Positions 3,507 through 30,271 of a DNA stretch of 35,796 bases are shown in pieces. The number at the start of each line of letters is the position of its first letter. The first letter of the stretch is position 1. This DNA is from a virus, in the IMG/VR virus record IMGVR_UViG_3300045051_000105, positions 1 through 35,796 of that record, one strand, 5' to 3'. The translations under genes were made by a program, and so were the position numbers. Under the pieces are notes generated by a model, which saw only the letters and a list, made by a program, of their open reading frames with translations, was not told the origin of the DNA and did no database searches.

Positions 3507-3878
3507 ATGAGAAGTATAACTTTTGAAGGCAAAAAAATCAACTTTGACTTTTCTTTAGGTAGTATCAATGATGTTTATGTTAAAGAGTTAGGAGGCGACT
3601 TCAATGACTTAATTAACATGAATGACTTTGAAAATGACACATCAAAACTTATTGAGGTAACTCGTGATATGATGCTAAGTGGTCATATCTATTGGCTTTA
3701 CATTAATGGTCATGATGAGGAAGCTGAATCTTTAGTAGCTAAGATTAAGAGTTCTAAAATGATTGCAACAAAATGGTTGATGCAAACAACGGTTATTGCA
3801 GTTGTTGAGTGGATTACTAAAGACTTGATGCCAAGTGATTTAGATGCACCAAAAGCTACTAACACAAAAAAAAAGTAG
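3507..3878 (+). CDS. Tail assembly chaperone, short (gpG-like) product
   Basis: 123 aa, between tail tube and tape measure, the fixed position of the tail assembly chaperone. It starts MRSITFEGKKINFDFSLGSI, a short beta hairpin often seen in these chaperones, followed by helices. The C-terminus is lysine-rich and encoded by nine consecutive A bases immediately before the TAG stop. This ends in a canonical A AAA AAG slippery heptamer in the correct phase, so some ribosomes should enter the -1 frame and make a longer gpGT-like product ending at 4189. The short form binds the longer form and the tape measure during tail assembly in well-studied phages. Confidence 0.85.
   Translation: MRSITFEGKKINFDFSLGSINDVYVKELGGDFNDLINMNDFENDTSKLIEVTRDMMLSGHIYWLYINGHDEEAESLVAKIKSSKMIATKWLMQTTVIAVVEWITKDLMPSDLDAPKATNTKKK
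3866..3878 (+). promoter_or_regulatory. Programmed -1 frameshift site in tail assembly chaperone
   Basis: Nine A bases (3866-3874) then G and the TAG stop. In the 0 frame the codons read ACA AAA AAA AAG TAG, so bases 3869-3875 form A AAA AAG, the same heptamer used by E. coli dnaX. After a -1 slip the ribosome reads GTA GTA ATA ACT TGG GGC AAT ATG, entering the next coding region in frame. Transcription slippage on the A9 run could give the same result. Confidence 0.85.
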
Positions 3879-3895
3879 TAATAACTTGGGGCAAT

Positions 3896-4189
3896 ATGCT
3901 CACAAGAATTTATAGGACTGGTTTGAAGCCATGGGAGTGGAAAAGGATGACTTTAGGGGAGTTTCTTGACTACGAACATGGCTTTGAATTTAGAAAAGCC
4001 GAGCAATGGGATATCACAAGAAATATAATGTGGGCTTCATTAGCAGCTATGGGTGGAAAGGATGCAAAACAACCTAAAGACCTTATACCATTATGGACGG
4101 ACAATATAGGCAAGGATTTAGAAAAATCAAAAGAAAAAGAGTATCTTTCGGATGAAATAGTTAAAAAGTGGGTTAATTCTATTGAGTAA
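3896..4189 (+). CDS. Tail assembly chaperone, frameshift extension (gpT-like)
   Basis: 97 codons from the ATG at 3896, but the frame is open back to the slippery site at 3875, and it is exactly the -1 frame of the preceding gene. I therefore expect it to be translated mainly as the C-terminal part of a fusion from 3507 to 4189 (about 227 aa). It is helical and rich in Trp (KPWEWKRMTLGEFLDYEHGFEF, then RNIMWASLAAMGGKD), like the T-domain that contacts the tape measure. Its stop overlaps the tape measure ATG (TAATGG). Confidence 0.82.
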   Translation: MLTRIYRTGLKPWEWKRMTLGEFLDYEHGFEFRKAEQWDITRNIMWASLAAMGGKDAKQPKDLIPLWTDNIGKDLEKSKEKEYLSDEIVKKWVNSIE

Positions 4190-6516
4190 TGGCAGAAACT
4201 AATGAGTTTTATATAAAGATTGGTGCAGATGTTAATGATGCGACTACTAAGTTAAATCAATTATCATCTCAACTTTCACAATTAGGAAGTGTTACACAAA
4301 ATACTTCAAGTAAGATTAGTGGAAGTATGAATAGTGTAGGGAAGTCAATCAACGGTGTTTTAGCTGGTATTGGTGTATCCCTTAGTATTGCATCTATTGT
4401 AAATTTTGGTAAATCAGCATTAGTAACTGCAGCACAATTAGAGCAAACTGCCGTAGCATTTAGGGTATTTACGGGTAGTGCTGCAACTGCCAATCAAATG
4501 CTTGCCGAGTTAAAATCTCAAGCACTCAACTCCCCGATGCAATTTCAAGACATCACTAAAGGGGCTCAAACATTATTACAATATGGATTAACGGCAAAGC
4601 AAACCGTAGAAATTACCCGAATGTTGGGTGATATTTCGGGTGGTAATGAAGATAAATTTCAAAGACTTTCTTTAGCGTTTGGTCAAGTAACTGCAGCAGG
4701 TCGTTTAATGGGTCAAGAGGCTCGCCAAATGATTAACGCAGGGTTTAACCCATTGCAAGCAATTTCGGATAAGACAGGCCAAAGTATGGCAGTTCTTACT
4801 CAAAGGATGCACGATGGGCAAATATCCGTTCAGGAAGTTGCTGATGCCTTTATTTATGCAACAAGTGAGGGTGGTAGATTCTTCGGAATGGCTGATGAGC
4901 AATCAAAGACATTGGCTGGGGCATACAATAAAATGGCTGAAAGTATTTCATTTACTTTCGCTGAAATTGGTCAAAACTTAAATAAATCTCTTGACTTATC
5001 AAGTGCAGCAACTCATATATCTAATTTGGTTGCTCAGATTGGCAAGAATTTCGAAACAAGTGGGCAACAATCAACATTTTGGGGTAATGCTTTAAAAGAA
5101 GTATTATCAACTTTAGCCTTAGCCATTGATATGGTTATTAAGGGTATAAAAATGTTTGCTACTGCAATCGAAGAATTAGTAAATATTAGTGGATTAGATA
5201 AATTTTCAAAATGGCTTGATGATACAACTATTAAGGTTGCAGGCTTATTTGGTGAGGAGGCTCAAAAGAATGTAAGGGATTTTATAGGCTACTTGCATAG
5301 TTTTGATGCTGGTATAGTTGGAGTTTCTAATTCAATGCCACAAGGTATTCCTGATTCCATAAAGTATATGGAAAATCAGATAAAAGACCTTAATAAAAAA
5401 ATGGAGTGGCAGATTTCTGTTGACCCAAAAGGTTATAAGGAATCATTAGATGCCGTTAATAAACTTACTAATGACATATTAGTATTAAAAAAGACCACTG
5501 GTAGAACCTTGTCGGGTGGTTTAGGATTTAGTTCTAAGCCAAGCAAGAAGTCGGAAAAGAAAACTGCAACACCAAAGTACGAAACTGTTGCATTCCCAGA
5601 CTTTATTACAAAAGATGTAGGAACTAAAATTAAAGCATTTATTCAGGAGAATAAAGATGCTGCAACGACTGTATCTAATTGGTGGAGTACATCTGAAACA
5701 AAAAGATTAGCTGAATTAAAAAAGAACTATGAGAAAGATGTAGCTTTTGCAACAAAATATGGTCTTGATTTAACAAATATTGAGAAGAAATACGAATCAG
5801 AAAGACTTTTGATTACGCAAAAATTCTCTCAAGGTAAAGTTAGTGCAAGAGATGATGCTCGTAAAAAAATGATTGAGCAATCAACTCGTGATGTAGCAGA
5901 TGCACTTAAAAAAGATTCATTAACTTTAAATGGCTTATTTACAACTTTAAAAGCTGATGATGCAAGAAATTCTTTAGGTAAATTTGCTCAATCGGTATAT
6001 TCTGCACAAAGAGATTTTGCAATGAATATTTCGGTTGGATTTGCAGAGATTGCAGGTGCAGCATTAGCTGGGGCATTTAATGTTCAGGATGCCTTTAAAG
6101 CACTTGGCTCAATGTTCGTTGGTGCTATTGGTGATTTATTAATTAAGGTAGGTACTGCAGCAATCGAATTAGGTTTATTTAAAGAAGGTATTGAAACTGC
6201 CTTAAAGTCACTTGGGGGTGGTGCAGGTATGGTTGCACTTGGTATTGCTGCAATTGCTGCTGGTACTGCACTAAAAGCCTATGGAGGCAAAATTAATGAC
6301 TCCATGAGTGCTAATAAACAAAGTGTTAGTAAGTCAACAAATAAACCAAGCCAAATGGGAATGACAAGTGGTGCTTCTTATCAATACGGAGGTGCTTCTT
6401 ATGCAACACAATCGGTTAAATTATCTATTGACTTAACGGGAGCAATTACGGCAACTCAAACGGGTTACCAAATCAATAAATCACTTGAAACAGTATTAAG
6501 AGTAACAGGACGATAA
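4189..6516 (+). CDS. Tape measure protein
   Basis: 775 aa. Residues about 1-70 are a helical coiled region; about 85-245 form the tape-measure domain (LEQTAVAFRVFTGSAATANQ, SPMQFQDITKGAQTLLQYGL, LSLAFGQVTAAGRLMGQEARQM, GFNPLQAISDKTGQSM). Then follow long helical stretches, a Lys/Thr/Ser-rich linker near 445-465, and hydrophobic segments at about 625-705 (AEIAGAALAGAFN, MVALGIAAIAAGTALKAYGG), usual for tape measure proteins that insert in the membrane during DNA entry. Length sets tail length: about 1.5 Å per residue implies a tail near 110-120 nm, an inference only. Confidence 0.93.
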   Translation: MAETNEFYIKIGADVNDATTKLNQLSSQLSQLGSVTQNTSSKISGSMNSVGKSINGVLAGIGVSLSIASIVNFGKSALVTAAQLEQTAVAFRVFTGSAATANQMLAELKSQALNSPMQFQDITKGAQTLLQYGLTAKQTVEITRMLGDISGGNEDKFQRLSLAFGQVTAAGRLMGQEARQMINAGFNPLQAISDKTGQSMAVLTQRMHDGQISVQEVADAFIYATSEGGRFFGMADEQSKTLAGAYNKMAESISFTFAEIGQNLNKSLDLSSAATHISNLVAQIGKNFETSGQQSTFWGNALKEVLSTLALAIDMVIKGIKMFATAIEELVNISGLDKFSKWLDDTTIKVAGLFGEEAQKNVRDFIGYLHSFDAGIVGVSNSMPQGIPDSIKYMENQIKDLNKKMEWQISVDPKGYKESLDAVNKLTNDILVLKKTTGRTLSGGLGFSSKPSKKSEKKTATPKYETVAFPDFITKDVGTKIKAFIQENKDAATTVSNWWSTSETKRLAELKKNYEKDVAFATKYGLDLTNIEKKYESERLLITQKFSQGKVSARDDARKKMIEQSTRDVADALKKDSLTLNGLFTTLKADDARNSLGKFAQSVYSAQRDFAMNISVGFAEIAGAALAGAFNVQDAFKALGSMFVGAIGDLLIKVGTAAIELGLFKEGIETALKSLGGGAGMVALGIAAIAAGTALKAYGGKINDSMSANKQSVSKSTNKPSQMGMTSGASYQYGGASYATQSVKLSIDLTGAITATQTGYQINKSLETVLRVTGR

Positions 6517-8618
6517 TGGTAGGATACGGAACTAAATATCAATTTGAATTTGATGCAACTTGCAAACCTTTTGCAAGCCAAGAATTAAAGGTAACTAAGT
6601 GTAAAGTATTAATCTTAAAAAAGGATTATTCGGGCACAATAACCGAAATTCCTTATGGTCAAGTAAGCCCTATTGAGATTGATTACCCTACTGCCGATGA
6701 CGATATTTTCTACCCACTAAGGGGTAGTACATTATCTTTTAATGTGCTTGGTGGAGCAATTAATATGGATTCTATTATTTCGGAAGATGAAACCGAATAC
6801 TATTTACAATATTACCGAGATAATGTTCTTTTTTGGAGTGGCTTTGTTTCTCCCGAATTATGTGAAGAAGATATATTCTTAAAGTATCCTGCAATTCAAT
6901 TCCAAACAATTGATGGTCTTGGTGCATTAAAAAACAAGACATTAACCGAAAGCACAAAATATCCCGATGGAATTATGAGCCTTTTAAGTGTTGTTCAAAA
7001 GGCATTAAACTCAATAGGGTACGGTTATGGGTTAAATGTGCTTTGTAAGCTATTTAATTTAAATCAAACTAAAACGGCTTATTCAACTCCTTTAGAGCAA
7101 ACATACATTTATACTGCTGGTATCCAAGATAAAAACTTTGAGTTTAAGGAAAACTCTGACTTAGTCTTAGATACTTGCAACCTTCTTAATTCTATTGTTT
7201 ATCAAAACTACGGTGCTTGGTATTTTGTAAAGGTTAAAGATTTAGCTTTTGGTGTTAATGAAGCAAGTAAGTTTGATATTAATGGTAACCTAAATACTTC
7301 TTCAAAGCAATTAATTCCTACACTAAGACATGGTGAGGATTTTTTAATTATTGCAGAGCCTAAGAGAAAGATTCGTAGATTCTACAAAGAAGTTGAAATT
7401 GAATATCAAAGAGGTGATAGTAAAATGATTAATGGCAACTTTAATATTTGGGTTGGCACTAAGAATGAAATTACTTATACCCCTACGCTTGATTTAAATT
7501 CGGGTTCTTTATCGGAAACAAGTTTTAAGTTTTTTACTAAAAGTTTTTTAGGTAGCCCTAAGACTTATTGTTTATACGACCCAATTGCTAATAGATATTT
7601 GCTTGGATTAACTTCTACATCACCATCGGAAGGTTGTATTTTTAATGATACTCCATTGAGCATAAATTGGGCTAATGGTTTTGATTTAAATATTAAGTGC
7701 CCTACGGCTAACCCATCTTTTTCGGTTTCGGTTGGAATACCCGAAGCCCCTGGGCAACCATCTTGGTATTTCAATTTTACTACGGGAGAGTGGCAAACAT
7801 CTGAATATGTATTTACAAAATCTGTTGATTATCCATCGGATGATTTAAATATATTTAGTTTTAATTTCCCATTCCCAGATGTTGTTGGTGCTTATGATAT
7901 TTACAAGTATAAAGATTATAAGGTTGGCATAAAGTTATACACTCAAGCAAGAACTGGGTATGGTAGTTATCAGACCATTTATGAACAAGTATTATTAAAC
8001 GGTAGTGGCAATTATGCAGCAAAAGCTACGGGTACTTGGCCTGTTTTTTATGAGAATAAAAGCCAATCTTATATTGACAACTTTAAGTTAATAAACCCTA
8101 AGAATACATCTTTAAAACCACCTAAAAAAGTAGTATATAGTGGGGATTCTTTGTTGTCTGATAACTTCTTTATAACGGATTATAATTATTCAAACTTACA
8201 TACATTTAATGGTACTGATTACATATCAACTTTTGATAAGTCTTGGTACGAAAGAGATGAGTATGATCCATTAAACCCTCCATTAGAAGGAGGAATTTAT
8301 GGCATCAATGAGTTAAATGCTCGAAACATTCTTAATCAATATTCTGATTATAGAAACATATTTTCGGGTACTATTATTGGTAAGAATCTTCAATTTGGTG
8401 CTATTTATGAGTTCCCTGTTCAAGGTGCATTAGCAGACAAGAAGTTCTTCCCATTATCAATGAAATTGAATGAGAGGGATTGTACTGCCGATGTTGTGTT
8501 CATGGAACTCACATCAAATGAGATAGATGCTCAAATGATAACATCAAGATACGATGTAAATGGCAACTTAATTTCCTCATCAGCAACTGAGAGTAAAAAA
8601 AAAAGCGTAACGGGGTAG
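6516..8618 (+). CDS. Large distal tail/baseplate protein
   Basis: 700 aa in the zero frame, beginning in the tape measure stop (ATAATGG). It follows the tape measure gene, where Dit/Tal-type distal tail proteins are found. The N-terminal 200 residues look like a tail-tip beta domain (YQFEFDATCKPF, YGQVSPIEIDYPTADDD, GSTLSFNVLGG, YLQYYRDNVLFWSGFVSPELCEE); the rest is beta-rich with aromatic loops. Similar long proteins in Bacteroidota phages are not well characterised. The C-terminus lies in a run of ten A bases and continues in the -1 frame for about 31 codons to 8701, right up to the next gene, so the natural protein may be longer. Confidence 0.75.
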   Translation: MVGYGTKYQFEFDATCKPFASQELKVTKCKVLILKKDYSGTITEIPYGQVSPIEIDYPTADDDIFYPLRGSTLSFNVLGGAINMDSIISEDETEYYLQYYRDNVLFWSGFVSPELCEEDIFLKYPAIQFQTIDGLGALKNKTLTESTKYPDGIMSLLSVVQKALNSIGYGYGLNVLCKLFNLNQTKTAYSTPLEQTYIYTAGIQDKNFEFKENSDLVLDTCNLLNSIVYQNYGAWYFVKVKDLAFGVNEASKFDINGNLNTSSKQLIPTLRHGEDFLIIAEPKRKIRRFYKEVEIEYQRGDSKMINGNFNIWVGTKNEITYTPTLDLNSGSLSETSFKFFTKSFLGSPKTYCLYDPIANRYLLGLTSTSPSEGCIFNDTPLSINWANGFDLNIKCPTANPSFSVSVGIPEAPGQPSWYFNFTTGEWQTSEYVFTKSVDYPSDDLNIFSFNFPFPDVVGAYDIYKYKDYKVGIKLYTQARTGYGSYQTIYEQVLLNGSGNYAAKATGTWPVFYENKSQSYIDNFKLINPKNTSLKPPKKVVYSGDSLLSDNFFITDYNYSNLHTFNGTDYISTFDKSWYERDEYDPLNPPLEGGIYGINELNARNILNQYSDYRNIFSGTIIGKNLQFGAIYEFPVQGALADKKFFPLSMKLNERDCTADVVFMELTSNEIDAQMITSRYDVNGNLISSSATESKKKSVTG

Positions 8619-8701
8619 GTACTGACCTTGGACAAGCAGGTGGCTCAGGCACTTTATTTGATAGATTTGTTGCTTTCTTTATGGACGATTTTAAACCTTA
8701 A
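8595..8701 (+). other. Probable -1 frameshift (or slippage) extension of the distal tail gene
   Basis: Ten A bases at 8595-8604 are read AAA AAA AAA AGC in the zero frame, which then stops at 8616-8618 after S-V-T-G. The -1 frame stays open as R-N-G-V-G-T-D-L-G-Q-A-G-G-S-G-T followed by a hydrophobic, aromatic LFDRFVAFFMDDFKP and TAA at 8699-8701. This fills what would otherwise be an 89-base gap; the next gene begins six bases later. A sequencing error in the homopolymer would give the same picture. Confidence 0.7.
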
Positions 8702-8707
8702 TAACCC

Positions 8708-9289
8708 ATGGCAAGAGAAATAGGATACTTTTATTATGTTAATCGTTCTGCAATCAAAATGTATGGTAGTGGTGATTTTATTAATGCAGTAGATACGGGA
8801 TATGTTTATGGTTGGACAGAAACATTAACCGATTTTACTCTAAGAGCATACCTTAAAACATTTACATTTGACACAACTAAAGCAAAAGCTGGTTTACAAT
8901 TTCGCCAAGAGGCAAAGAATAATGTTCCATTTGTTGGAATGTTTCTTGATGGTAGTGGGAAATTAAAGATATATCGTAGGGTAAAAACCGATGGTAGTAT
9001 AACTTTTGGTGCTACGGCAACACTTGGAGTTACCGAAGGCATTTGGTTGGAGATGAAAAAAATAAGTGGAGAAATAGAATTTAACTATTCTCTAAATCCA
9101 AGCAATACACCTATTGGCTCAATAGTTTGGACTAATTTAGATACCATTTACGATGAAACCCAATCATACCCAACTTTGGAAAAGCATTTAAGTTGTAGTA
9201 GTGGTTCGGATAATGTAAATTTGGCTTATTATACGAATGTATATACCGAAGATTGTTGGATTAGTCCAATAGGGCAAAAAGAAGATTAG
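8708..9289 (+). CDS. Tail-tip structural protein, possibly jelly-roll/lectin-like
   Basis: 193 aa, not firmly recognised. It has an alternating beta pattern: TLTDFTLRAYLKTFTFD, AGLQFRQEAKNNVPFVGMFL, GKLKIYRRVKTDG, GIWLEMKKISGEIEFNYSLN, DNVNLAYYTNVYT. The 'AGLQFR......GMFLDGSGKLKIYRR....WLEMKKISGEIEFNYS' rhythm resembles concanavalin A-like carbohydrate-binding domains (LamG or DUF1349 type). Placed between the distal tail protein and the fibre, it could bind host surface glycans. This is inference from strand pattern and place. Confidence 0.6.
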   Translation: MAREIGYFYYVNRSAIKMYGSGDFINAVDTGYVYGWTETLTDFTLRAYLKTFTFDTTKAKAGLQFRQEAKNNVPFVGMFLDGSGKLKIYRRVKTDGSITFGATATLGVTEGIWLEMKKISGEIEFNYSLNPSNTPIGSIVWTNLDTIYDETQSYPTLEKHLSCSSGSDNVNLAYYTNVYTEDCWISPIGQKED

Positions 9290-29830: not shown

Positions 29831-30271
29831 AAAAAAAAAGTATCATAAGGGAGTATAATTCTTTTTCTTTGCCTACTTTCTTTTTCTTATTTAGAACCTA
29901 TTCATTTTGCACACAATATTGAGTAGTAAACCAGGTTATTTAACCGAAACAATAGAACACTAAACATATTGATTTTAAGCCCTTATTTATCCTTTGTTAA
30001 GGTCTTTGTACTTGCATACCTATTTGAGTTTATTAGGTGTAATGTATGGGGCTTTATATGGTGTGCTATATGGTGGTTATATGTTCATATCTTAATTGAT
30101 ATAATTACCCTATTGCAAGGGCTTTTTTTATCCAATATCAATACCCTGTTTAATCAAGGCTAAAAGGGAATTACCCAGGTGGGTTACCCTCCGACTACCA
30201 TCTGTTGAATTGGTGTACCCTATTACTACCTACGTTACCCTACCCTTACAGGTGTGTTATTGTGTGTTTCT

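Follow-up and report, generated by a model that had tools for sequence, protein, structure and literature searches.

A conserved poly-A run in a predicted phage tail-hub gene as a candidate programmed slippage element for two protein forms

Known slippage systems and the A-run of the hub gene

The closest published parallel to the element described here is a pair of type VI secretion genes (PMC4256274). According to that paper, tssM1 of Citrobacter rodentium carries an A11 run, and both forms of its product as well as their ratio are needed; tssM3 of Yersinia pseudotuberculosis carries an A9 run, its DNA encodes the long form and slippage yields the short one. Slippage in the two genes is put at ~15–25% (PMC4256274). 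For phage tail chaperones, PMC3711429 gives 6–7% frameshifting, and PMC5009743 describes variants that arise by frameshifting for the chaperone as well as for capsid and tail-tube proteins of phages. A review notes that Ig-like extensions are indifferent to the direction of the frameshift or to in-frame coding. In an insertion sequence of Roseiflexus, a nascent-RNA hairpin stimulates polymerase slippage on T5C5, with loss of a base (PMC5009743). Poly-A slippage has been proposed for a Campylobacter phage in a methyltransferase gene, not in a tail gene (PMC2853527). Searches of open-licence papers brought up no description of slippage affecting a tail hub.

We analysed an A10 run in the gene for the predicted central tail-tip hub of an uncultured phage (IMG/VR record IMGVR_UViG_3300045051_000105; the window is the whole analysed stretch of 35,796 nt, and the genes and parts of the element given below lie on its + strand). 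What appears to be new is that programmed slippage would provide a predicted tail-tip hub in a short and a long form, and that the form encoded by default in the DNA has switched repeatedly. As in tssM1 and tssM3, an A-run lies in a structural gene, two C-terminal lengths result and the DNA default can be reversed. Unlike these genes, in which a large domain is lost and slippage was measured, the present case concerns a phage tail hub with an extension of 31 residues and is known from sequence. Its element is moreover kept across a whole phage group, with several switches of default and, in most lineages, a predicted hairpin 5' of the run; the tssM-like reversal of default here occurs within one phage group, in a related kind of machine.

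With the G/GT chaperone (PMC5009743), the site shares a slippery run close to where a tail gene ends (3' side) and a minor extended form. Unlike the chaperone, which is not in the virion and has one shift direction per phage, it involves a predicted hub whose runs are longer, a predicted hairpin on their 5' side and a default frame that switches. Two C-terminal forms of a virion protein are also known from the Ig-extended proteins; the frameshifted head and tail-tube proteins, several of them with Ig-like additions, are made by a ribosomal shift, whereas here a predicted tip hub, a linker-helix and poly-A are involved. The Roseiflexus element resembles the site in having a hairpin, here a predicted one, immediately 5' of the slippery motif. 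This parallel is incomplete, because the published T5C5 case loses one base, whereas the shifted state on the A-run described here requires one added A or two lost.

The hub gene (short form, 700 aa, positions 6516–8618) lies directly after the tape measure gene and ends in ESKKKSVTG before its stop codon. A sequence-only reading had placed an A10 run at the end of this large distal tail gene, and we confirmed it at 8595–8604. The zero frame reads AGT AAA AAA AAA AGC GTA ACG GGG TAG across the run, with the TAG at 8616–8618. In the -1 frame, a TAA read at 8594–8596 overlaps the start of the run, and past this stop the frame is open as KKKRNGVGTDLGQAGGSGTLFDRFVAFFMDDFKP to a stop ending at 8701, with 31 residues beyond the lysines. 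The same reading had described a Gly-rich -1 extension of about 31 residues filling an 89-base gap, which proved exact: 89 bases separate the zero-frame TAG from the next ATG (8708), and only six remain between the end of the extension and 8708. The extension, RNGVGTDLGQAGGSGTLFDRFVAFFMDDFKP (8606–8701), consists of the Gly-rich linker followed by a helix predicted to be amphipathic; tryptic cleavage of the long form would be expected to release, for example, NGVGTDLGQAGGSGTLFDR. The short-form stop TAG arises from the extension-frame codons GTA GGT, and a third-frame stop TAA (8608–8610) arises from CGT AAC.

The extension frame contains no ATG, GTG or TTG until an ATG six codons before its end. 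Together with the TAA at the start of the run, this lack of a usable start codon means that the extension can be reached only by a shift inside the run, and we rejected a separate small gene with its own start on the same ground. A stop immediately preceded the lysines in every shifted row inspected, including the rows of L020–L025 and L038.

Runs of at least eight A are rarer in the window than expected from shuffles (11 matches vs 27.3). Only two runs of at least nine A lie within its genes, the A10 run and an A9 run in the tail-chaperone gene (3866–3874), and each of the 15 longer relatives examined (12–14 kb) has these two sites and no further A or T run of that length. The depletion of long A-runs in the window and the presence of the run in every one of the 48 contigs extending to this point (see below) place the A10 run beyond chance. 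A further A9 run (29831–29839) falls outside the called genes, among several A8–A9 runs on the window's right side.

Relatives, run length and the encoded frame

Relatives were sought by two profile scans, a scan for the peptide FVAFFMDDF and a scan for NG[VI]GTDLG.(Q/E)AG with free wobble. A first scan, before these, yielded five IMG/VR relatives, one with 83% and four with 43–44% identity, and all five kept the run, the TAG and the -1 extension. In total, the site was reached by 48 contigs, namely the window and 47 distinct IMG/VR contigs, all uncultured. The scan by extension peptide, which allowed free wobble and had no A-run in its pattern, found 47 viral stretches, and the run was present in all except L082, which ends at a contig edge. 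L082 was excluded from the counts, as were L083 and L084, two genome-contig matches with no A-run and unrelated sequence past the pattern that we took as chance. Seven partial matches to the query (L029, L030, L033, L037, L039, L040 and L111) were not read as reaching the site. The relatives point to Flavobacteriia as hosts. Among isolates we found no such element; the homologues in Cellulophaga and Flavobacterium 11b had neither run nor extension at the gene end, and the extension peptide gave no match at E≤10 in 50,697 phage records.

The run was A10 or A11 in 48 of 48 contigs. The extension was in the -1 frame in 23 of these, including the window, and directly in frame in the other 25, so that the check proposed in the sequence-only reading, a search for homologues carrying the extension in frame, gave a positive result. 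A10 runs were found in 22 shifted contigs (the window among them) and 14 in-frame ones, A11 runs in one shifted and 11 in-frame contigs; by tally, L118–L120 fall within the A10 GCCG group. Because A10 and A11 both occur in both states, run length alone does not fix the state.

We built a tree of the core protein from 41 distinct rows (L028, L050 and L076 partial), with run and extension excluded. The best tree required five changes of state, of which at least three are forced by well-supported branches, compared with a mean of 14 after shuffling. We relied on the lower figure, since the tree program warned of long branches meeting. State was consistent by clade over contigs from 45 metagenomes, and close clades were uniform across samples: the six near-identical contigs L013–L018 were all in-frame, and L020–L025 and L038 were all shifted.

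These distributions bear on two explanations at the DNA level. The first is a homopolymer miscount during assembly, the gene being truly in one frame everywhere; A10 and A11 runs are indeed error-prone in some chemistries. The shifted contigs, however, cluster by clade, and the 22 besides the window come from 22 metagenomes and also end at the zero-frame TAG. A11 was called throughout the L043 clade, and L002 has A11 yet is shifted. A miscounted run that simply fuses the frames, named in the sequence-only reading as the finding that would speak against slippage, was not what we observed, as both states occur with A10 and with A11 and are consistent by clade. We consider a miscount extremely improbable; judging from the contigs compared, the state of the homopolymer is neither an assembly error nor chance. 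The second explanation is phase variation, in which mutations of one A in the run toggle phage populations between a short and a long hub. Homopolymers are mutable, and at least three switches of the default frame have taken place, but the uniform state of close clades across samples and the occurrence of either state with either run length make such toggling very unlikely.

Selection on the extension, the run and the stop codons

We counted codon changes in five pairs of shifted sequences. In the extension frame, 43 synonymous changes were found vs 14 non-synonymous ones (pS 0.40, pN 0.039). The other two frames of the same pairs showed the opposite pattern, with pS of 0.09 and 0.00 vs pN of 0.13 and 0.14. 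By this measure the out-of-frame extension is evolving like a translated, selected peptide, and the analysis rules out a plain stop with an unused remnant downstream. Homologues that merely stop at the zero-frame TAG had also been proposed as evidence against slippage; the 22 shifted contigs other than the window indeed end at this codon, yet their -1 extension shows conservation at the protein level.

Codon usage was counted in 19 of the 41 rows or in 12 deep lineages. The three Lys codons of the run were AAA in 36 of 36 cells of the deep lineages. As a control, 17 other near-invariant Lys columns of the same gene had AAA in 87 of 183 cells, and none of them was all AAA. Where the run is followed by TCC or CTT, the tenth A is supplied by the Ser codon TCA before it; in the other cases it is supplied from downstream. 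The Arg right after the run was CGT in all 11 deep lineages with Arg there (core usage 0.21), and another Arg of the extension peptide was AGA in 8/8. The Val after the run was GTA in 11/11 deep lineages, and the twelfth has Ile, encoded by ATA. The Gly, Thr, Leu and Ala codons adjoining these fixed codons were variable.

CGT and GTA/ATA are the codons that place TAA and TAG in both other frames, and they do so in the in-frame lineages too, which argues that slipped products would be made there as well. Codon fixation alone is no proof, because TTC in a Phe-Phe pair is equally fixed and has no stop-forming role. At this pair (8675–8680) the first codon was TTC in 12/12 lineages and the second TTT in 11/11 with Phe there, a choice that would avoid a T run and could reflect either chance or run avoidance. 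The Gly codon before the TAG was the rare GGG (0.088) in 11 of 11 shifted representatives, so the short form of shifted lineages always ends in Gly.

The codon data also bear on a reading in which only the long form is functional. The A-run would then be tolerated, slippage would mend losses of one base in its vicinity, and the short form would arise as a side product. Such a rescue would fit the conservation of the extension in both states, and 'savior' frameshifting is named in PMC5009743. In-frame lineages would then need no run of ten or more A, yet all 25 in-frame contigs keep it, and neither the codon choice that keeps stops in both other frames nor the invariant GGG is expected. We consider rescue as the sole function unlikely.

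The upstream hairpin, the agent of slippage and the hub protein

An RNA hairpin of 7 bp with one bulge, CTC-A-TCAG/CAA/CTGAGAG, is predicted at 8576–8593 of the window (-5.0 kcal/mol) and ends 1 nt before the A-run. A small hairpin is predicted at this place in most lineages, and its sequence differs between them, with the stems CTCAC/GTGAG, AGGAAC/GTTCCT, AAGAAC/GTTCTT, CTCCG/CGGAG and GCCG/CGGC. We compared folding at the run with windows at every codon offset of the gene, the hairpin having been spotted before it was tested. The mean 20-nt fold at the run was -3.52 in 17 relatives vs -0.59 (sd 0.40) elsewhere, and -3.28 vs -0.61 in the 12 deep lineages; in both sets, 0 of 490 offsets were as low. 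In 34-nt windows, two or three of the 490 offsets were as low as the run site.

In a test of perfect stems in 18 distinct contexts, the window and L036 had weak ranks (p 0.11 for each). Four of the 18 contexts have either no hairpin (L041, L049) or a weak one (L026, L043), and L013 forms it only with a mismatch. By eye, we noted one double, synonymous, compensatory change (L036 vs L006) and a few changes of single hairpin pairs (window, L002, L028, L044). A terminator was rejected, as the hairpin precedes A's, not T's, on the coding strand.

The same phages provide a comparison in the tail-assembly chaperone pair (3507–4189; genes 3507–3878 and 3896–4189), whose A9 run shows the usual -1 shift. 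Its phase was fixed as xxA AAA AAA AAG with a -1 shift in 16/16 sequences, in all of which the -1 frame was open for ~107 codons from the run and nearly identical. The chaperone run is an ordinary G/GT-type site. The hub gene, lying downstream of the tape measure, does not have the G/GT position between the major tail protein and the tape measure. Its run is longer than that of the chaperone by one or two bases and is followed by G, T or C. No such hairpin was seen at 19 chaperone sites, three of them from named phage records (mean -0.86 in 24-nt windows). The hub run probably differs from the chaperone run in its mechanism.

Programmed -1 frameshifting of the ribosome on A AAA AAA within the run is the main rival to slippage of RNA polymerase. 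The heptamer is present in frame in the window, and the same phages have a -1 site of fixed phase with an A AAA AAG context at the chaperone. With a ribosomal -1 slip, shifted phages would gain the long form, and in-frame phages a short form ended by TAA. A stem-loop or pseudoknot 3' of the slippery site is common, though not universal, at programmed -1 ribosomal frameshift sites. In predictions of pseudoknot-free folds, no structure stood out 3' of the hub run in seven sequences (z -0.89 to +0.92). The greater length of the hub run, the variable base after it and the 5'-adjacent hairpin, which the chaperone site lacks, also weigh against the ribosome, and so does the GTA-encoded TAG in in-frame lineages, where a ribosomal -1 slip would not use it. 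We give ribosomal frameshifting a limited chance. With no 3' structure and with a 5' hairpin here but not at the chaperone, polymerase slippage is favoured over ribosomal slippage, and we infer that the polymerase is the more probable agent.

Taken together, these findings suggest that the gene for the predicted central hub of the tail tip contains, in its A10 run, an element for programmed slippage. The agent would most likely be RNA polymerase, which would slip on the run with the aid of the small nascent-RNA hairpin just upstream and produce transcripts with varying numbers of A, from which ordinary translation would make two hub forms. The short hub would terminate no more than ~24 bases past the first A, at TAG or TAA; the long hub would add the Gly-rich linker and an aromatic helix of amphipathic character. 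This phage encodes the short form directly and would owe the long one to slippage; in about half of the relatives the roles are reversed, the long form being encoded and the short one left to slippage. We think it likely that programmed slippage, probably by RNA polymerase, yields both a short and a long hub and leaves the DNA default free to flip. The comparative evidence thus best supports what the sequence-only reading had suspected, namely that slippage gives rise to a short and a long version of a tail-tip protein that is not a chaperone, and both versions probably enter the tail tip.

A more far-reaching version, which we put forward tentatively as a possibility, is that the gene is indifferent to its frame. 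Strong mixing would make both forms whatever the DNA encodes, so that the default would drift, and selection would act on the A-run, the hairpin, the extension and the early stops in the two other frames. Solved relatives of the hub fold are trimers. With a frame-indifferent gene, the hub would be an oligomer mixed from short and helix-bearing subunits, in which polymerase error sets a built-in asymmetry of the tip or controls its valency.

If slippage is as proposed, a structural protein of the virion tail tip is made in two forms across a whole phage group, and natural contigs of both defaults, with the chaperone A9 run as an internal comparison in the same genomes, are at hand. Testable questions would be why a hub needs two kinds of subunit, how slippage of the host RNA polymerase comes about and is promoted by a hairpin, and what allows a reading frame to be nearly neutral in evolution. 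Annotation software will label such genes as truncated or intact and miss one product each time.

The assignment as a hub comes from structure prediction. We modelled the natural in-frame long form of L010, which is 82% identical to the short form of the window, with 22 sequences (single chain; mean pLDDT 72, pTM 0.77). VIA alignment matched the model to the baseplate hubs 8fqc_C1 (Z 16.0, 300 aligned, rmsd 5.3) and 3d37_B (Z 15.4, 282 aligned, rmsd 4.6), and to the further hubs 9ki1_G of Mu (Z 14.0) and VgrG 4uhv (Z 13.2). By fold, the product is predicted to be a tail hub of the gp27/VgrG type. The match is at the level of fold only, as a profile of the hub protein gave 0 matches at E≤1 among PDB sequences. 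In the L010 model the last strand ends at residue 689, which suggests that the short form is a complete fold. It is followed by a low-confidence linker and a helix (706–709 and 712–722). Of five helix variants, four had a hydrophobic moment of 0.52–0.54 and one of 0.31.

The next gene (8708–9289) encodes a protein of 193 aa without a Pfam or PHROG match, modelled as a lectin-like beta-sandwich (pLDDT 82.9). VIA gave Z 20.1 to 3mep_C and ~18 to C-terminal domains of GH43. Guessing from its position, the extension helix may dock this lectin-like neighbour, or it may dock another part of the tip. Within the hub itself, residues ~296–496 of the L010 model form an inserted beta-sandwich that resembles carbohydrate-binding modules. 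This insert is poorly conserved between subgroups in the alignment and is perhaps receptor-facing and fast-changing.
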